Origin: Anaerolineae bacterium | Lineage (GTDB): Bacteria; Chloroflexota; Anaerolineae; Aggregatilineales; Phototrophicaceae | NCBI GenBank assembly: GCA_026645945.1 | Contig: JAPKMO010000020.1 | Coordinates: 1 to 50,823, forward strand | Direction of reading: 5' to 3' | DNA: 50,823 bases | In this document: in pieces, positions 26,159 through 37,958 of the stretch | How positions within the stretch are numbered: position 1 is the first letter of the stretch | Layout of the letters: the number at the start of each line of letters is the position of its first letter | The notes under the pieces: generated by a model | Database searches by the model: none | Told to the model about the DNA's origin: nothing | The model's input: only the letters and a program-made list of their open reading frames with translations | Position numbers and translations under genes: made by a program

Positions 26159-29100
26159 TCACAACAGAGACTCGATAACTTCGCTCACCACGTCGTCCAT
26201 AAGGCGTGTTTCGCCGCGCGCACAGGCAGCTGTGTGCGTCCTTTCGTCCAGCGGCAGGTCACGCAGCAGCCGCTCCGCCTGCTGCCGCGTGTAAAACCAA
26301 CTGGCGGGATGCCGAAGCACAAAAGCCAGCAGTTCGGCAGCCCGCGCCGGTTCGCCGGCGGTGGCCCACAGCCGGGCAACTTCGACCAGATGTACCGTCA
26401 GCATCATGACCGATTTCGCGCCGGCGGCCAGCGCAATCGAAAGCCGCAGGTGAAAACGCGCCTGCTCGATGTTGTTCATCGCCAGGTAGGCCCGGCCCAG
26501 GCAGTAATACGCGCCGGACTGCCCCCAGGGGCTGCTGTCGGTTTCAAACAGCGCCAGGCTTTGCTCGGCCAGCCGCCGCGCTTCTGCTGGGTCGCCGGTG
26601 AGCAGCATGATCCGGCTGAGGGTTTGCAGCGCCCATCCTGTACCCTGAGGGTGGTCAAGCGCCTGGAACTGCGCGATGCTCTCCCGGCTCAGGCGGTCGG
26701 CTTCTTCGTAATTACCCTGTTCCATCGCCAGCAAACCCAGATGAAAGGTTGACCAGGCGACCGTCGTCCGGTTGCCTGACTGCCGGGCAGCGGCGATGCT
26801 CTGGTGTACCAGCTCGGTCGCCGGCTCGTAATGCCCCTGGAGACTCAGGCTTTCGGCCAGCCGGTCGAGTCCGTAGGCGACTTCGTTCAGGTCGCCGACG
26901 GCCTGGCTGAGTTCCAGACCTTCACGGTACAGCTGCTCCGCCTGGCGGTAGTTGCCCAGGGTATATGCTACCTCGCCCAGCGCCTTCAGGGATAGGCTGA
27001 TACCCCAGGTATCCCCGATCTGCCGCCGGATGTCCAGACTTTCCTGATAATGGCGCTGCGATTTGTCGTAGTGAATCTGGTCGTGGGCGATATCGCCAAA
27101 AAGCTGCGCCGCCAGAGCGATACCCCAGCGGTCGTTCAGGCGTTCGTAGGCGGCCAGGGCTTTACGCGCCCAGCGTTCCGCTTCGGAGTAGTTAATTTTC
27201 GGCCACAATGCCAGCGCGCCCAGATGAAAAAACGAAAGCGCAGCTTCCGGCGCTTCGACTTCGTTCAGAATCAAGGCGGCCTGCCGGTAAAAAGCCAGAC
27301 ACAGATCGGTATGGCCCAACCTGCGGTAGGTGAAGGCCAGCGCGGCGCTCATCTGCCCGAACAACCGCCGCTCCACATCGGCATCTGCCGCCGGTTGAGC
27401 CTGTTCCATTGCCCAGCCGAAAAGCTCTTTACTTTCCTGAAGGCGGCTTCGCATGGTGTAAAACAGCATCAGGCCGGTGACGAGGCCGCCGATTTTGGCG
27501 GTGATTCGTTTGTCAAAGGCACGATGCCAGGCGATGCGGATGTTATCAATTTCGGCTTCGATGGCGTTGAGCGCCGCGATCTGCCCCGCGCCTTTTAACT
27601 GCGTTTCGCGGTCGCGCATAAAACCGGCGTAATAAACGCTGTGATTGTCGTAGGCGCGTTCGCGTTCTTCATCGTTCAGTTTTTCTTCGGCGAACTGGCG
27701 CAGCAGTTCGTGCATCTCGAAGCGCCCGGCGGCGTTGCGCCGCACCAGCGACTTGCCGACCAGCGCCAGCAGCAGCGGCAGCGAAGCGTCGTCAGTGACG
27801 GCCTGGGCCGCTTCCAGCGTAAAGCCGCCCCGGAAAATCGCCAGCTTGCTTAATACCCGCCGCTCCAGTGGAGAAAGCCGCTCCCACGAGGACTCAAAAA
27901 CGGTGCGGAGGCTGCGGTGTCTCGACGGCAGGTTGCGCGTCGAACTGGCGAGGAAATCCGGCGAGCGTTCGATTTCGGCGACGATTTCAGGCGGGGAGAG
28001 CATGGGCAGCCAGGCGGCGGCCAGTTCGACGCCCAGCGGCATCCCGTCTACAAGCTGGCAGATACGAATGACCGCCGGTTTATCGGCCTCCGCCAGTTTG
28101 AAGTTGGGGCGCAGGCGGCGGGCGCTGCCGATGAACAGCCGGACGGCATCGTAACCGTCCAGGTTTGGCTCGTCAGTGTTCGATGGATAGGGCAATCCCT
28201 GGATTTCGTACAGCCATTCTTCTTGCAGCCCCAGGCGCTCGCGGGAGGTCGCCAGGACGGTCAGGCCGGGCGCGGCGCGCAGCATCTCCGCCACCAGTTC
28301 CGCGCCACCCAGCAGGTGTTCAAAATTATCCATCACCAGCAGCAGGCGTTTTTCGGCCAGGTAGGCCAAAAGCTGCCCTCTGGGGTCGCCCTCGCGCAGG
28401 CCGGTAAAACGCAGCGCGTCGGCCAGCGCCGGCAGCAGATATTCATCGGTGCCGACGGGAGCCAGCGGCACGAAACACGCTCCATGCGGGTAACGTTCAA
28501 CCGCCAGCGCGGCGGTTTGCAGCGACAGCCGGGTTTTCCCGATGCCGCCCGGCCCGACCAGGGTCAGCAGGCGGCAGTTTGGGTCGGCCAGCAGGCGGGT
28601 GATGTCATCCAGTTCCCGGTCGCGGCCTACGAAAGGTGTGGTTTGCGCCGGCAGGGTATAAACCGGCCCGCTGTGGAGCGCCGCCCGCGTGATGGTGGGC
28701 GCGGGGCGCGCCGGCGGAGGCGTTCGCCGCTCCTGGATGGCATGGAACAGCGCGGTCGTTTCGGCTTCCGGCTGGATACCTAATTCGCGGCGGAGCAGAT
28801 CGGCGCAGTCCTGGTACTGCCGCAGCGCCGCCGAAAGCTGCCCCAACCAAGCATACAGCAGCATCAATTGGCGCTGAGCGGGTTCGTGGAGCGGGTCAAG
28901 CGCCAGCCAGCGCCGGGCATGAGGCAGGGCGGCCTCGAACTCGCCGCGCTCCGACAGACAGGCGGACAGCCGGCGCAGCGCGTCCCCCAGCTCGCGGCGG
29001 AGGTTTTCCCGTTGGAACAACTGCCATTCGTCAAATTCCAGGCTGTCCGGCAGCGCGAATCCGGCCATGAAGTCGCCCTGGTACACAGCAGCAGCTTCCA

Positions 29101-29437
29101 CCAGGCGCGCCGCGTCATCCCCGGCGGCCAGCTCGCGGAAACGCGCCACATCCAGATGATAACCGGGGCGCAGGGCGATGGTGTCACGTTCGGCATCCAG
29201 CCAATCCCCACCCAACGATTTGTTGAGTGTCCACAGTGTTGTTCGCAGATAAGCGTAGGCGCTGCTTTGATCGAAGTCCGGCCAGAAAAAAGCGGTCAGG
29301 GAATCGCGGCTGTGGGCGCTGCCCGTAACGGCCAGGTAAGCCAGCAGCGCCAGCGCCTTGCGGCGGCTGATGCGTTCCGTCTGGCCGTCCAATTCAATGT
29401 GGGGCGCGCCGAGCAGGTGAAGGTTCAGGCGAGACAT
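26159..29437 (-). CDS. SARP-like BTAD-NB-ARC-TPR transcriptional regulator
   Basis: A 1,092-residue STAND-type regulator. Residues 1-90 are an OmpR/SARP-type winged helix (ALALLAYLAVTGSAHSRDSL); 95-240 the bacterial transcriptional activator domain (BTAD); 265-600 the NTPase core with P-loop LVGPGGIGKTRLSL (about 295-302), LLVMDNFEHLLGG and LATSRERLGL; 640-1050 TPR repeats (for example GNYRQAEQLYREGLELSQAV). The family is expanded in Chloroflexota and in actinomycetes. It probably assembles on NTP and effector binding to activate transcription. ATG 29437 is preferred to TTG 29464. Direct repeats in the gap to the divergent gene are likely its target. Confidence 0.93.
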   Translation of the reverse strand: MSRLNLHLLGAPHIELDGQTERISRRKALALLAYLAVTGSAHSRDSLTAFFWPDFDQSSAYAYLRTTLWTLNKSLGGDWLDAERDTIALRPGYHLDVARFRELAAGDDAARLVEAAAVYQGDFMAGFALPDSLEFDEWQLFQRENLRRELGDALRRLSACLSERGEFEAALPHARRWLALDPLHEPAQRQLMLLYAWLGQLSAALRQYQDCADLLRRELGIQPEAETTALFHAIQERRTPPPARPAPTITRAALHSGPVYTLPAQTTPFVGRDRELDDITRLLADPNCRLLTLVGPGGIGKTRLSLQTAALAVERYPHGACFVPLAPVGTDEYLLPALADALRFTGLREGDPRGQLLAYLAEKRLLLVMDNFEHLLGGAELVAEMLRAAPGLTVLATSRERLGLQEEWLYEIQGLPYPSNTDEPNLDGYDAVRLFIGSARRLRPNFKLAEADKPAVIRICQLVDGMPLGVELAAAWLPMLSPPEIVAEIERSPDFLASSTRNLPSRHRSLRTVFESSWERLSPLERRVLSKLAIFRGGFTLEAAQAVTDDASLPLLLALVGKSLVRRNAAGRFEMHELLRQFAEEKLNDEERERAYDNHSVYYAGFMRDRETQLKGAGQIAALNAIEAEIDNIRIAWHRAFDKRITAKIGGLVTGLMLFYTMRSRLQESKELFGWAMEQAQPAADADVERRLFGQMSAALAFTYRRLGHTDLCLAFYRQAALILNEVEAPEAALSFFHLGALALWPKINYSEAERWARKALAAYERLNDRWGIALAAQLFGDIAHDQIHYDKSQRHYQESLDIRRQIGDTWGISLSLKALGEVAYTLGNYRQAEQLYREGLELSQAVGDLNEVAYGLDRLAESLSLQGHYEPATELVHQSIAAARQSGNRTTVAWSTFHLGLLAMEQGNYEEADRLSRESIAQFQALDHPQGTGWALQTLSRIMLLTGDPAEARRLAEQSLALFETDSSPWGQSGAYYCLGRAYLAMNNIEQARFHLRLSIALAAGAKSVMMLTVHLVEVARLWATAGEPARAAELLAFVLRHPASWFYTRQQAERLLRDLPLDERTHTAACARGETRLMDDVVSEVIESLL

Positions 29438-29517
29438 AACCCTATCCAGGTCGTGACGGGACAACGGTCGGGCGCGGAACTGCGCGCCTCGCCCTATGGT
29501 ATCACAAAACTGCGGTT

Positions 29518-32725: not shown

Positions 32726-34675
32726 ATGGCAGAAACCTTCACTTTTCAGGCAGAAATCCAGCAGTTGTTGGATATTCTGGTTCATTCGCTGTACACCGAA
32801 CGGGAAATTTTTCTCCGCGAGCTGATCTCGAACGCCTCCGACGCGCTCAGCCGTATCCAGTTCGAGCAGCTTACCAACCGCGACATCCTCGACCCGGACG
32901 CCGAACTCGCCATTGAAATCAAAGCCGACGAAAGCGCCGGGACACTGACCATCAGCGATACCGGCATCGGTATGACCCACGATGAGCTGGTGAATAACCT
33001 GGGTGTTATTGCCCGCAGCGGCGCGAAAGCCTTCCTGGAAAAACTGCGCGAATCGTCCGGCAGCGGCGCGGTTTTGCAGGATGTCATCGGCCAGTTCGGG
33101 GTGGGCTTTTATTCGGTTTTTATGGTGGCGGATAAAGTGCGCGTCGTCTCGCGCTCGTACCAGCCCGGCGAACAGGCTTACGCCTGGGAGTCCACCGGCG
33201 GCGCGACCTATACCATCGAACCCGCCGAACGCGAAGTGCGCGGCACGGATGTGATTATCCACCTCAAAGAAGATGCCAAGACGTTTTTACAGCCCTGGAC
33301 GCTGAAAGACATCATCCGCCGCCACTCCGACTATATCGCTTTTCCGATTTACGTCGGAGACGACGAGCAGCCGGCCAACAAACAAACTGCCATCTGGCGG
33401 CAGGACCCCAAAGACATCACCGAAGAACAGTACAACGACTTCTACAAAATGCTGACGCTGGACTGGGAAGCGCCTTTACATCACCTGCACGTGCGCGCCG
33501 ACGTGCCGCTCCAGTTTTACGCTCTGCTGTATATCCCATCCAGCCCAGAGCGCAGCCTGCTCAGCCCGCGCAAAGAGCCGGGTTTGAAGCTGTACGCCCG
33601 TAAGGTGCTGATTCAGGATTACAATACTGACCTGCTGCCGGAATATCTTCAGTTTGTGCAGGGCGTGGTAGACAGCGAAGACCTGCCGTTGAATGTCAGC
33701 CGGGAGAGCGTGCAGGCCAACCGCGTGATGGTCAACCTGAAGAAGACGCTCACTGGGCGCGTGCTGTCTGACCTGAAGCGTATGGCGCAGAAAAACCGCG
33801 ACAGCTACCTGAAGATTTATGCCGCCTTCAGCCGGTTCATCAAGCAGGGTGTGGTGGTCAGCCCGGTTGACCGCACCGACATCGAGCCGCTACTGTTTTT
33901 CGCCAGCACGCGCAGCGAAACCCCGGAACAGCTTTTTTCGCTGGATGAGTACGTCGAACGGCTGGCTGCCAACCAGGATGACATTTACTATGTGATGGCC
34001 GACGACTTTTACACCGCCAGCCGCAGCCCGCACCTGGACGCCTTCCGCGCGCGCGGCATCGAGGTGCTGTACCTGACCGACCCGGTTGATTCGTTCATGC
34101 TGATGGGGCTGCCGGACTACAAAGGCCACAAACTCCGCAGCGTGGACGACGCCAACATTGACCTGCGCGACATCGGCGAAGCCCGCGAGGACGAGGCCGC
34201 GCCCGCCCGCGAGAACCTGCCGGAAGATCGTTTTAACGCCCTACGCCAGCGGTTCGCCGATGTGCTGGGGGAGCGCGTGCGCGATGTGCGCCAGAGCAAA
34301 ACGCTCACCCGCAGCCCGGCGCGGCTGGTCAGCGACGATGAAAACGCGGCGCGTAATATGTTCCGGCTCAACCGCCTGCTCGACCGCGAGGTGGAACTGC
34401 CGGTCAAAAGCCTGGAACTGAACCCACACCACCCACTGATGTATAACCTAAGCGCCATGCTGGCTGCTTCGCCGGGCAGCCCGCTGGTGAATCTGGTCAT
34501 CGAGCAGGTGTTTGAAACGGCGCTGCTGCAAGACGGCATCCACCCCGACCCGGCGGCAATGGCCGACCGGCTGACGCTGCTGATGCAGGCCGCCACCGGC
34601 ACGCCCGCCGCCGAACTGGACATCACCGACGTGCCATCCGCGCCGCCCGCAGCGCCGGATGATGAAAACGCCTAG
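32726..34675 (+). CDS. htpG: Molecular chaperone HtpG (Hsp90)
   Basis: A 649-residue bacterial Hsp90. The N-terminal GHKL ATPase shows REIFLRELISNASDALSRI, TISDTGIGMTHDELVNNLG and VIGQFGVGFYSVFMVADKV; the middle domain has LPLNVSRESVQANRVM and the catalytic-loop region; the C-terminal dimerisation domain contains LNPHHPLMYNLSAMLA. The last 25 residues are Pro/Ala/Asp-rich. It refolds client proteins in the cytosol. GGGGTGAG lies before the ATG. A TATGAT at 32671-32676 could be its -10. A palindromic element begins exactly at its stop codon. Confidence 0.96.
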   Translation: MAETFTFQAEIQQLLDILVHSLYTEREIFLRELISNASDALSRIQFEQLTNRDILDPDAELAIEIKADESAGTLTISDTGIGMTHDELVNNLGVIARSGAKAFLEKLRESSGSGAVLQDVIGQFGVGFYSVFMVADKVRVVSRSYQPGEQAYAWESTGGATYTIEPAEREVRGTDVIIHLKEDAKTFLQPWTLKDIIRRHSDYIAFPIYVGDDEQPANKQTAIWRQDPKDITEEQYNDFYKMLTLDWEAPLHHLHVRADVPLQFYALLYIPSSPERSLLSPRKEPGLKLYARKVLIQDYNTDLLPEYLQFVQGVVDSEDLPLNVSRESVQANRVMVNLKKTLTGRVLSDLKRMAQKNRDSYLKIYAAFSRFIKQGVVVSPVDRTDIEPLLFFASTRSETPEQLFSLDEYVERLAANQDDIYYVMADDFYTASRSPHLDAFRARGIEVLYLTDPVDSFMLMGLPDYKGHKLRSVDDANIDLRDIGEAREDEAAPARENLPEDRFNALRQRFADVLGERVRDVRQSKTLTRSPARLVSDDENAARNMFRLNRLLDREVELPVKSLELNPHHPLMYNLSAMLAASPGSPLVNLVIEQVFETALLQDGIHPDPAAMADRLTLLMQAATGTPAAELDITDVPSAPPAAPDDENA

Positions 34676-34756: not shown

Positions 34757-34790
34757 AACGGCGGGCTGTGGATGGCCCGCCGTTTTATTT
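34757..34790 (+). terminator. Rho-independent terminator of htpG
   Basis: Perfect 10-bp stem AACGGCGGGC (34757-34766) / GCCCGCCGTT (34775-34784), loop TGTGGATG, then TTATTT. Confidence 0.85.
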
Positions 34791-34877: not shown

Positions 34878-36218
34878 ATGAGCCGCGAAAGTATTCTGGT
34901 GGTTGATGACAGCCCCCATATTATCGAATTTATTGTGGACAGCGTTCTTAAACCGAACGGTTATAAAGCCCTGATCGCCCGCGACGGTGTGGACGCCCTG
35001 GAAATCGTTCGACGCCAGCGCCCCGATTTAATCCTGCTCGACCTGCAAATGCCCCGCATGGATGGGATGCAGGTATTAAACCGCCTGAACGCCGAACGCC
35101 TGAACGTGCCGGTCATCCTGATGACGGCGCACGGCAGCGAAGCCATCGCCGTTGAGGTCTTCCGCCGGGGCGTTAAGGACTACATCATGAAGGGCGACTC
35201 GTTCGCAGCGGATGAAATCGCCGCTGCCATCGAGCGCAGCCTGGCGGAAGTTCGCCTGCGCCGGCAGAAAGAGGCGCTGACGGCGCGGTTGGTGAGCATG
35301 AATGCCGATTTAAACCGGCGGCTGCGCGAACTGCGGATTCTGTACAGCATTGGCAAAAGTGTTACCGCCCTGATGGACATGGACGGCCTGATGCGGCGCG
35401 TCGTCGGCGCGGCGACCATCCTCACCGAAAGCGAAGAAGGCGCGATTTTTATCGTCGAACGCGGCGAACTGGTCTGCAAATCGGTCAAACGGAAGGGCGA
35501 CGAACGCCCGGTCCCACTCAACCGTGTGATGTCCGAGCCGCTGGCGGTGCAGGCGATGGAGTCCGGCCAGTTGGTGCTGTCGCTGCCGGATGCCGCCGCC
35601 CGTAAAAACGGGCGCTATAAAGCGGCAGTGGCCGCGCCGCTGCTGCTCGGCAGACGGCCTATCGGTGCGCTGGTGGTTAAAAACATCTCGTCGGATGCGC
35701 CGGCTTTCGGAGAGCATGACGGCGAACTGCTCAGCGCCCTGGCCGATTACGCCGCCATCGCCTACAAAACCCAGGGCCGCATCCACGACGAAGACCGCGC
35801 CAGCCTGCGCGATGCCCTGCACTCAAAGACCGTTTTTGTTTCCTACCGGCGCAGCGATTGGGACGTTTTTGTGCATCCGCTGGTGGAGTTTTTGCTTCAG
35901 GAGGGCATCAACGTCTGGATTGACCAGAGCCTGCTGGAAGGCGGCCAGGACTGGCTGGACAAAATCAACCAGGCGCTTGATGAATGCAGCGCGCTGCTGC
36001 TGTGCGTCACGCCCGAGGCGCTCAAATCGCGCTACGTGCGGCTGGAGTACCGCTACTTCATCCACCACGAAAAGCCGATCATTCCGGTCATCTGCCGCGA
36101 GGCGAACCTGCCAGCCGAACTGCTGGGCATTCAAAGCCTGAACTACGGCGAAAACAGCAAGCTGATCGAACGCTTGCGGCTGGTGCTGAACAAAAACAGC
36201 AGCGTTCACGAGGGCTAA
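34878..36218 (+). CDS. Response regulator with GAF and TIR domains (REC-GAF-TIR)
   Basis: A 446-residue fusion. Residues 5-120 are a receiver domain with VVDD, phospho-acceptor D55 in LILLDLQMPRMDG, T83 and K105. Residues 120-152 are probably coiled coil. Residues 155-297 form a GAF domain (LRILYSIGKSVTALMDMDGL). Residues 317-440 are a TIR domain: FVSYRRSDWDVFVHPLVEFL, INVWIDQSLLEGGQDWLDKI, then RYVRLEYRYFIHHEKPIIPV. Glu390 in YVRLE matches the WVxxE glutamate used by NAD-cleaving TIR enzymes. GGTGA precedes the ATG. No sensor kinase is adjacent. Its stop overlaps the convergent larA stop. Confidence 0.9.
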   Translation: MSRESILVVDDSPHIIEFIVDSVLKPNGYKALIARDGVDALEIVRRQRPDLILLDLQMPRMDGMQVLNRLNAERLNVPVILMTAHGSEAIAVEVFRRGVKDYIMKGDSFAADEIAAAIERSLAEVRLRRQKEALTARLVSMNADLNRRLRELRILYSIGKSVTALMDMDGLMRRVVGAATILTESEEGAIFIVERGELVCKSVKRKGDERPVPLNRVMSEPLAVQAMESGQLVLSLPDAAARKNGRYKAAVAAPLLLGRRPIGALVVKNISSDAPAFGEHDGELLSALADYAAIAYKTQGRIHDEDRASLRDALHSKTVFVSYRRSDWDVFVHPLVEFLLQEGINVWIDQSLLEGGQDWLDKINQALDECSALLLCVTPEALKSRYVRLEYRYFIHHEKPIIPVICREANLPAELLGIQSLNYGENSKLIERLRLVLNKNSSVHEG

Positions 36219-37483
36219 AACGCTGGCAGCGGTACGGTGGCGTTGGCGGCGGGCAGAACGCCCACCCGCGCGCCAGGGGGTAAATCTGCCAGCGCCATAT
36301 TGATCGCTTCGTCCAGCGCGGCGGGTATCAGCAGCAGTTTTCGCACCAAATCCGGCGGCATATCCGAAACCAGCAGCACGCGCCGGGTGGCGGCGTCGCG
36401 GGCGATCTGGTAAGCCTTATGCGAGCCAATCTGGAAACCCTCGCGGGCGAAACGCTCAAAAACGGCCTGATACGACTCCACACCGTCGAGCATCCAGCGT
36501 TCGTATTTCTGGCTGTCGGTGCCTTCCGGGCAGGCCGCCGCCAGGATGATTGTGCCGCCGGGGCGGGTTATCAGCGCGGCGTGCGCCAGCGCCTTCTGCG
36601 ACTGGTACAGGTTGATGTCCTTCGGGTGGCCGCCGGGCGCGGCGATCACCAGATCAAAAGGCGCATCCACCGGCACGGTCGCCAGTTCATTGACGAGCGG
36701 GATTCCGGCGCGCATCATCGCCAGCGGGTCGCCCGCCAGCGCCCGCACGATCTGTTTGTCGCGGTTTAAGACGGCATTCAGCGCCACATGGACGCCGACC
36801 AACCGCCCGATGTCCTCCACGTCCTCGCGGGCAGGGTTGCCATCGTAACGGCCTAACTGAGCGTTTTCGTGCATCATCAGGGCGTGGTTGCGGTTGATGG
36901 TTTCCCGCCCGGCCAGCCCTATCGCCGCGCTTTTGACGCCGCCGGAAAAACCCATGAACTGGTGTGGCTCGATGTTGCCCACCACCAGACGCAGGCCGGC
37001 TTCGGCGTAGCGGCGGTTGATCCAGACCGGCGTGCCGCGCGGCGTCTGTCCCCCGTAAATCAGGTTGGCCGCATCGTCGCAGTCGTGGCAGAAAACCGGG
37101 TAGCGCGCCAGCACGTTGGCCGGCAGGATTTGCGGAAACTCTGCCGGCGGCATGGGCGGGTGCGTGCCGGTGGCGACAATCAGCGTGATGCGGTCGGGCG
37201 CGAGTCCCAGGTTTTCCAGGCGTTCCAGCAGCGGCGGCAGCAGATGTTCGTGCGGGACGGGGCGCGTTTTGTCGTTGACGGCCACCGCCGCCGAGCGCGC
37301 GCCCGCGAAATCGTCCCAGCGCAGGCCGCCCAGCAGGTCGTCCAGCGCCGCCCGCACCACGCCGGGCGGGTCGGGCGCGGCGGGTACAGCGGCAGGGGCG
37401 ATCACCTGCACGTCCAGCGCACCGGCGGGCAGCGTAAAAATCAGGCGCGTTTTGCCATATGGGATGCTGTAGCTGCCGATCAT
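36215..37483 (-). CDS. larA: LarA family protein (nickel-pincer lactate racemase-like)
   Basis: A 422-residue LarA-type protein. Characteristic parts: AVAVNDKTRPVPHEHLLPPL, LIVATGTHPPMPPAEF, VVGNIEPHQFMGFSGGVKSA (the Lys that carries the nickel pincer cofactor and a nearby His) and LAGRETINRNH (the Ni-binding His). The C-terminal domain has VIAAPGGHPKDINLYQSQKA and GTIILAAACPEGTDSQKYER. Members racemise or epimerise 2-hydroxyacids. No larB, larC or larE gene, needed for the cofactor, is in this window, so they must lie elsewhere. ATG 37483 with AAGGGGA upstream is preferred to 37567. Confidence 0.88.
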   Translation of the reverse strand: MIGSYSIPYGKTRLIFTLPAGALDVQVIAPAAVPAAPDPPGVVRAALDDLLGGLRWDDFAGARSAAVAVNDKTRPVPHEHLLPPLLERLENLGLAPDRITLIVATGTHPPMPPAEFPQILPANVLARYPVFCHDCDDAANLIYGGQTPRGTPVWINRRYAEAGLRLVVGNIEPHQFMGFSGGVKSAAIGLAGRETINRNHALMMHENAQLGRYDGNPAREDVEDIGRLVGVHVALNAVLNRDKQIVRALAGDPLAMMRAGIPLVNELATVPVDAPFDLVIAAPGGHPKDINLYQSQKALAHAALITRPGGTIILAAACPEGTDSQKYERWMLDGVESYQAVFERFAREGFQIGSHKAYQIARDAATRRVLLVSDMPPDLVRKLLLIPAALDEAINMALADLPPGARVGVLPAANATVPLPAF

Positions 37484-37514
37484 TGTTTCGTCCCCTTTTT
37501 GCCCATGTCGAACT

Positions 37515-37958
37515 TCACGAGCGCCATTCCGATACCGTGAAGCTGCCATCGCCCGCGATTTTAACATAATACAGCCGGTCGAAGCCCTCGCTGTAGGCCG
37601 GGATTTGCAGCCGCCGGCGCATCATATACAAACCCTGGTCGGGGATACGTTCCGCGCCGCCGCGTCCGGCATTGCGCCGCAGGGCATCCTCAAGCCTTGA
37701 CTGGAAATAATAACCGACGATGTGAAAACCTGCCGGCTTCGCCAGCGCGATGTATCTGGCGCGTTCGCTGGCGAGCGTGTTGGTATTGTCCACCACGAAC
37801 GGCTGCCCGGCCTCGACGCAGGCGCGCAGAAAAATATCCTCCCGCCAGCGCGTTTTGAGCATATCCAGGTTGATCCGCATATGCGTCCTGAAAAACCGAT
37901 GCCGGTAAAACGTGGATTTACCCGTCGCCTGGATGCCGCAGAAAATGACCGCTTCCAT
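37515..37958 (-). CDS. P-loop kinase-like ATPase (AAA_33/polynucleotide kinase type)
   Basis: A 147-residue P-loop protein: Walker A AVIFCGIQATGKSTFYRHRF, a DxM step (RINLDMLKTRWRED), FVVDNTNTLASERARYIALA (Walker B-like VDNTN) and an Arg-rich lid region (YYFQSRLEDALRRNAGRGGA). It fits small metabolite or polynucleotide kinases of the zeta-toxin/AAA_33 group; the substrate is unknown. The pattern VVDNTN is typical of this group. AGGTGGCAGGA precedes ATG 37958. It lies 31 nt upstream of larA on the same strand and may be co-transcribed. Confidence 0.85.
   Translation of the reverse strand: MEAVIFCGIQATGKSTFYRHRFFRTHMRINLDMLKTRWREDIFLRACVEAGQPFVVDNTNTLASERARYIALAKPAGFHIVGYYFQSRLEDALRRNAGRGGAERIPDQGLYMMRRRLQIPAYSEGFDRLYYVKIAGDGSFTVSEWRS

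Follow-up and report, generated by a model that had tools for sequence, protein, structure and literature searches.

A TIR domain in the class III cyclase position of a receiver-GAF protein: a predicted NAD+-consuming response regulator in an Anaerolineae bacterium

Most of what is known of TIR NADases concerns immune effectors that are switched by assembly. What, then, might a TIR domain do at the C terminus of a protein that begins with the receiver of a two-component system? Here we analyse such a protein, encoded in a stretch of 50,823 nucleotides (hereafter the window) that is the whole of contig C122 in the 4.7-Mb, 254-contig assembly of an Anaerolineae bacterium (genome G000). The gene starts with an ATG at 34878, ends with a stop codon at 36216-36218 and encodes 446 amino acids, laid out as follows.

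34878..36218, + strand: REC-GAF-TIR response regulator gene (open reading frame, Pfam, relatives, dN/dS)
34893..35231, + strand: receiver (REC) domain, residues 6-118 (Pfam Response_reg, E 1.3e-26)
35208..35366, + strand: long predicted helix, residues 111-163, linking REC with GAF (AlphaFold model)
35376..35762, + strand: GAF domain, residues 167-295 (Pfam GAF_2, 6e-10; model)
35832..36149, + strand: TIR domain, residues 319-424, in the seat of the paralogues' class III cyclase domain (Pfam TIR_2, 6.8e-21; PDB sequence matches; model)
36033..36047, + strand: Y386-V-R-L-E390, in which E390 is the predicted catalytic glutamate (alignments)

The Response_reg, GAF_2 and TIR_2 matches all exceed the Pfam cut-offs. 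A first-pass annotation, made from the sequence alone, had proposed this 446-residue reading frame with a receiver, a GAF domain and a C-terminal TIR domain; the reading frame and the Pfam matches bear this out, and the residues that it had singled out (D55, T83, K105, Glu390 and the YVRLE motif) are all correctly numbered. In NCBIfam, the listed matches of the 446-residue protein were only to receiver-bearing families and lay far under the cut-offs. The closest named records of the gene come from the 'Chloroflexi bacterium' metagenome-assembled genomes CFX2 and L.E.CH.71, with identities of 97% and 89%. By a simple counting method, dN/dS against two close orthologues (97% and 89% identical) was 0.078 and 0.117 over the full gene, and the TIR domain taken alone gave 0.076 and 0.085. 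The G002 copy, at 50% identity, gave 0.47 for the gene and 0.42 for the TIR domain, values that are unreliable because dS is near 1 and saturated. Purifying selection acts on every domain between the close pairs. The interval 34878-36218 is a real gene, and its domain matches are not due to chance.

Full-length proteins of this architecture are rare. They were found in 6 of the 154 genomes of the order, the own one included: five belong to the same genus (G000, G002, G005, G006 and G014), where the distribution is patchy (5 of 17 genomes), and one to another genus (G021). Profile A1 was built from these six full-length relatives. Among the best matches listed from a class-wide sample of 396 genomes, which held only four of the six carriers and in which a distant copy could be missed, no further full-length protein appeared. 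In a phylum-wide sample of 400 genomes, few of them from this family, only the own genome had matches to the TIR profile. The matches that follow the full-length ones mostly end near residue 310, that is, they are REC-GAF proteins.

In its REC-GAF half, the window protein shares about 41-51% identity with REC-GAF-class III cyclases, which are common in the order (for example, L087:209-1915 and L018:1498-3078), and its output domain occupies the same position; the two differ in what the output is, Guanylate_cyc (PF00211) in the cyclases and TIR here. Pfam found Guanylate_cyc in all four cyclase members scanned (L018, L087, L015 and L206), and in the window protein it found TIR and no Guanylate_cyc. 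Among the loci compared, which were picked by similarity rather than at random and assigned by family match, 40 source entries have a cyclase attached to REC-GAF (one entry pools named records, the others are 39 genomes from the order), 6 have a TIR domain there and 13 have neither (12 genomes plus the pooled entry); these represent 55 different source entries, some counted under two architectures, and leave out two REC-GAF gene pieces at contig ends (G007:C595 and G007:C418). By Pfam, the output is a histidine kinase in L199, L200 and L202, and L123, L196 and L201 have no recognised output. Three genomes (G000, G005 and G014) carry both the REC-GAF-cyclase and the REC-GAF-TIR form, the cyclase of the own genome lying on G000:C32. 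Judged from these comparisons, REC-GAF is a reused input module. Because their REC-GAF half is homologous to that of the cyclases, the TIR domain of the REC-GAF-TIR group sits in the cyclase's seat, and the alignments make it very probable that TIR replaced the cyclase as output. The first-pass annotation had missed this exchange; its account of the architecture and its case for the glutamate are supported, the latter by the column in which E390 aligns, by its helix position in the models and by its conservation.

We read the protein as a predicted stand-alone response regulator whose TIR output is gated by assembly and consumes NAD+, a reading of its sequence that we consider fairly likely as a whole. 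Its receiver has the residues that define a two-component receiver: the acidic pair D10/D11, the phospho-acceptor D55, the switch residue T83 and the Lys, K105. In an alignment of 45 REC-GAF rows (A4), TIR forms included, D11, D55, T83 and K105 are kept in every row and D10 in 44, with a Glu in the remaining one. K105 is followed by Gly in five of the six REC-GAF-TIR proteins, the five copies of the genus, and by Pro in the G021 copy and in the cyclases shown. In these five genus copies (the window protein, L010-L012 and L014), the loop after the receiver Lys is also slightly longer.

Whether phosphorylation gates the TIR domain is, in our estimate, an even call. The receiver might instead serve only for dimerization while the GAF domain controls the TIR domain, perhaps by binding the cyclic nucleotide of a cyclase paralogue. 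In keeping with this, five of the six carrier genomes have another REC-GAF match, about as long as a cyclase protein and identified as a cyclase in three; Gly follows K105 in five of six; and none of the 71 HisKA matches of the own genome lies on C122, in agreement, for HisKA-type kinases, with the earlier remark that no kinase is nearby. Kinase-free receivers have also been proposed for conflict systems, according to the available portions of two papers (PMC8195603 and PMC11229360). The intact D11, D55, T83 and K105 in all 45 rows speak against a receiver that only dimerizes, and we regard control by ligand alone as rather unlikely. Near the G014 copy, a HisKA-HATPase gene lies one open reading frame away on the opposite strand; this arrangement is not recurrent.

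The exchange of cyclase for TIR may have happened more than once. In a tree of the REC-GAF half (45 rows), the five REC-GAF-TIR copies of the genus group together (90/100, not starred) and the G021 copy falls beside three cyclases from its own family; a single clade of all six is weakly rejected (p-AU 0.034, with long branches). The loop after K105, with Gly in the five genus copies and Pro in G021 and the cyclases shown, agrees with this tree. A tree of the TIR domains (32 rows) is compatible with a single clade (p-AU 0.527) and does not decide the matter. Two separate cyclase-to-TIR swaps are therefore possible on the basis of these trees.

The TIR domain has the residue expected of an enzyme. 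TIR NADases have a conserved catalytic Glu, as stated in the accessible text of PMC10937652. In profile alignments against the PDB, E390 falls in the catalytic Glu column of SARM1 and AbTir, and Y386 aligns with the Trp that lies four residues ahead of this Glu in both. The search used a profile of ten close TIR domains (A3), and its best E-values were for AbTir (7uwg and 8g83), another bacterial TIR protein (7uxr) and SARM1, for which a PDB title names residue E642; searched as a single sequence, the domain matched AbTir at 9e-6 and SARM1 weakly, at 0.006. The spacing of YVRLE is thus like that of WVxxE, as had been claimed from the sequence. E390 is kept in all six full-length REC-GAF-TIR proteins, at identities down to 37%, and of the 27 TIR rows counted within the own genome (which has 33 TIR_2 matches), 25 have a Glu in this column, although the alignment of the weakest rows is less certain.

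The Trp of a WxxxE motif is found only in the G021 copy; the other five REC-GAF-TIR proteins, including that of the window, have Tyr. Two reports bear on this position in the parts of them that are available. In SfSTING, an active NADase, N80 sits four residues before the catalytic E84 (PMC9402430), so that a Trp at this position is not essential. In AbTir, the W204A substitution lowered the output of 2'cADPR without abolishing it, and NAD-RNA was still processed, to a second, linear-type product (PMC10937652); we read W204, from our alignment, as the Trp that aligns with Y386. Together these data mean that Tyr386 is no argument against cleavage, and by analogy it may bear on the type of product. 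On this sequence evidence, the domain is likely to cleave NAD+ or an NAD-like substrate.

Structure models were consistent with this assignment and placed its limits. The full-length model (69-row alignment; mean pLDDT 84, pTM 0.51) has, in order, REC, helix 111-163, GAF, helices 279-300 and 304-314, and TIR. Long helices (111-163 and 279-314) run from the receiver via the GAF domain into the TIR domain, although the placement of the domains is uncertain given the pTM of 0.51 and low pLDDT at 309-315. E390 sits on helix 385-396, which in the models follows the third strand of the TIR domain, in line with the place of the catalytic Glu of TIR NADases on helix alpha-C. Compared as a whole, the model gave its best Foldseek E-values with a dual-sensor histidine kinase (6ob8, 6oap and 6oaq), with poor superposition (TMq 0.27-0.29, r.m.s.d. 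about 13 Å); this protein, which we take to contain REC-GAF, differs in having a kinase output. A model of the TIR domain alone was better defined (mean pLDDT 86.7, pTM 0.82). Its Foldseek matches were first a Hydra Toll-related TIR, then SARM1-NAD+ and the SPARTA TIR-APAZ, and lower down MyD88 and AbTir, with TMq of 0.63-0.67 for SARM1 chains and 0.73 for AbTir (7uxu_A). SARM1 and AbTir match about as well as the non-enzymatic MyD88, so the fold alone cannot tell an NADase from a scaffold TIR. In a viral fold library, the matches included TIR and nucleoside 2-deoxyribosyltransferase-like proteins, none of which explains the role of the domain. Another nucleotide substrate is possible, judging from the latter matches.

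If the fold does not decide, the domain might be a scaffold: a phosphorylation-controlled interaction module that recruits other TIR proteins of the cell without catalysis. Potential partners are numerous, as the own genome has 33 TIR_2 matches (31 above the cut-off), and one group of them, the FHA-FHA-TIR proteins, would be an example. This group comprises L088:3121-4317 (G000:C192) and its relatives L115-L119 and L180-L195. Its TIR domains are 42-45% identical to that of the window protein, and the TIR closest to the latter within the own genome (47%) belongs to it. At the E390 column, 14 of 18 FHA-FHA-TIR rows have Ala and 4 (L180, L185, L194 and L195) have Glu; the 18 rows were drawn from loci picked by similarity (30 loci plus earlier ones), with identical TIRs dropped. 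The flanks are nearly unchanged in the Ala rows, SRYVRLAYRYF in 12 and SRYTRLAYRYF in 2. The Glu can thus be replaced when it is dispensable. A same-strand kinase-like open reading frame follows the FHA-FHA-TIR gene in all six loci checked (L088 and L115-L119), in L116 after about 0.9 kb, and is a GAF-PAS-HisKA-HATPase in five of the six, those that were scanned. TIR domains of this lineage can thus adjoin phospho-signalling without the Glu, and MyD88-like TIRs match our model about as well as NADases do, both of which favour a scaffold. What tells against it is that E390 is invariant in the six REC-GAF-TIR proteins and is also kept in tail-sheath and WD40 fusions, and we consider a scaffold unlikely. 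The first-pass annotation had itself named a common scaffold without a conserved Glu as the outcome that would undo its proposal: the architecture proved rare in the genomes searched and its Glu was kept, and it is the related FHA-FHA-TIR group that has this character.

What makes the kinase beside FHA-FHA-TIR a candidate partner of REC-GAF-TIR is solely the related TIR domain in the neighbouring gene product. This idea is weakened by three genomes (G011, G015 and G024) that have FHA-FHA-TIR and the kinase without a full-length REC-GAF-TIR.

TIR domains of the same group occur in further fusions. One genome, G100, has a REC-TIR protein without GAF (L178, L205:2774-3679) in which the Glu is kept; the combination of receiver and TIR therefore occurs in more than one form. 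Its gene has in its vicinity a ParA-like gene and another whose ParB_N match is weak and under the cut-off. The closest other TIR domains are those of tail-sheath and WD40 fusions (55-57% identity, Glu kept). In L155:4676-6385 (G079:C5) and L156:4559-6406 (G077:C80), the TIR domain forms the C terminus of a protein like a contractile phage tail sheath, again with the Glu; Phage_sheath_1 was detected by Pfam in L155, and L156 was assigned by sequence similarity. Of two neighbouring open reading frames in L155 scanned by Pfam, neither is a tail gene. Pfam partners of TIR in the own genome include FHA (L088), FGE-sulfatase (L090) and TPR (L102).

The surroundings of the gene were then considered, with these features next to it.

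32726..34675, + strand: htpG (Hsp90), upstream neighbour (Pfam, locus comparison)
34757..34790, + strand: terminator-like hairpin and T-run after htpG (fold -23.3 kcal/mol, z -4.34)
36215..37567, - strand: lactate-racemase-like (LarA) gene, convergent downstream neighbour (Pfam, locus comparison)

The hairpin was found by sequence and folding and was not listed by a consensus terminator scan; it suggests that REC-GAF-TIR is transcribed separately from htpG. The htpG gene adjoins REC-GAF-TIR in G005 too and not in the other four relatives, and the larA-like neighbour is common to G005 and G006 only; among the six REC-GAF-TIR loci, no neighbouring gene is shared beyond G005 (both sides) and G006 (downstream side). 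We therefore rejected an assignment of function from neighbours, since htpG and larA are shared only by these two genomes, the hairpin separates htpG and the distant copies share none. A large BTAD/AAA/TPR regulator (26159-29464, - strand) lies a few kilobases upstream in the window.

These surroundings also bear on whether the protein is an anti-phage or cell-suicide effector, in which the TIR domain would deplete NAD+ upon a stress or phage signal received through the receiver. PADLOC found a resemblance to TIR effectors (best E 4.5e-14), the distribution within the genus is patchy (5 of 17), and upstream of the G006 copy lie a Schlafen AlbA_2 gene and a solitary receiver gene, neither recurrent. 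However, the PADLOC matches cover the TIR part or the receiver part alone and make up no whole system, for which reason a defence system was rejected; no recognised defence protein is among the ten window proteins scanned by Pfam, as had been stated before; the more distant copies share no neighbours; and the REC-GAF half is that of a cyclase-regulator family found throughout the order, an indication of ordinary signalling. We hold a role in defence to be very unlikely. For Thoeris, ThsB_TIR was below its Pfam cut-off and the PADLOC ThsB match was 1.6e-6 at best; no ThsA with SIR2 or SLOG was seen among the ten window proteins scanned by Pfam, and the STALD (ThsA) profile had 0 matches in the own genome but also 0 in every control genome. 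Among the best 5,000 tblastn matches against plasmids, no record covered 80% of the query. The own genome has seven class III cyclase matches.

How might a stand-alone response regulator of this kind work? Class III cyclases build their active site between two subunits. The REC-helix-GAF input that pairs cyclase halves could, we infer, pair TIR domains as well. An unlinked histidine kinase would phosphorylate D55, a ligand would bind the GAF domain, or both; the dimer would be reoriented through the long helices, bringing the TIR domains together as it would cyclase domains; and the assembled TIR would cleave NAD+ to nicotinamide and ADP-ribose or a cyclic ADP-ribose isomer, a product that would act as a second messenger or lead to growth arrest. 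There is a precedent for the assembly step in SfSTING, which completes its TIR pocket by assembly (accessible text of PMC9402430).

Several known systems resemble the protein in part. SARM1 and AbTir share with the window protein the TIR fold, a Glu in the E390 column and an aromatic residue four positions before it, and differ in their regulatory parts, ARM-SAM in SARM1 and a coiled coil in AbTir; here, REC-GAF takes that place and the activity is predicted. FHA-FHA-TIR, from the same bacterial family, likewise joins a related TIR to a phospho-signalling module, and differs in having FHA for REC-GAF, Ala for Glu in most rows and a place before a kinase gene; the REC-TIR of G100 has a receiver and a same-group TIR with its Glu, and lacks GAF. 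TIR-STING and TIR-SAVED also have a regulatory domain beside a TIR that needs assembly, as far as described in the available parts of PMC9402430 and PMC11229360; they sense cyclic nucleotides, whereas here an Asp receiver and a GAF domain are present. Conflict systems in which TIR is used have been reported to count receivers among their effectors too, as separate components in the portions seen of PMC7159879 and PMC8195603. In keyword searches of the open-licence literature, we recognized no report of a REC-GAF-TIR or REC-TIR regulator.

The protein is thus predicted, from its sequence, to be a response regulator whose output is unusual or, seen from the other end, a TIR enzyme whose input is. 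More tentatively, and with more doubt than confidence, one may picture a His-to-Asp phosphorelay that directly switches a TIR domain making an NAD+-derived messenger of the cyclic ADP-ribose type, an arrangement that would have arisen by exchange of cyclase for TIR, possibly twice, and would be an ordinary two-component output outside immunity. With an intact receiver in front of a TIR domain that takes the place of a class III cyclase, phosphorylation control of NAD+ cleavage can be asked about directly, and the pair present in the same genomes, REC-GAF-TIR with Glu and FHA-FHA-TIR with Ala, provides a natural control. If phosphorylation does turn on NAD+ cleavage, two-component signalling and NAD+-derived messengers would be linked.
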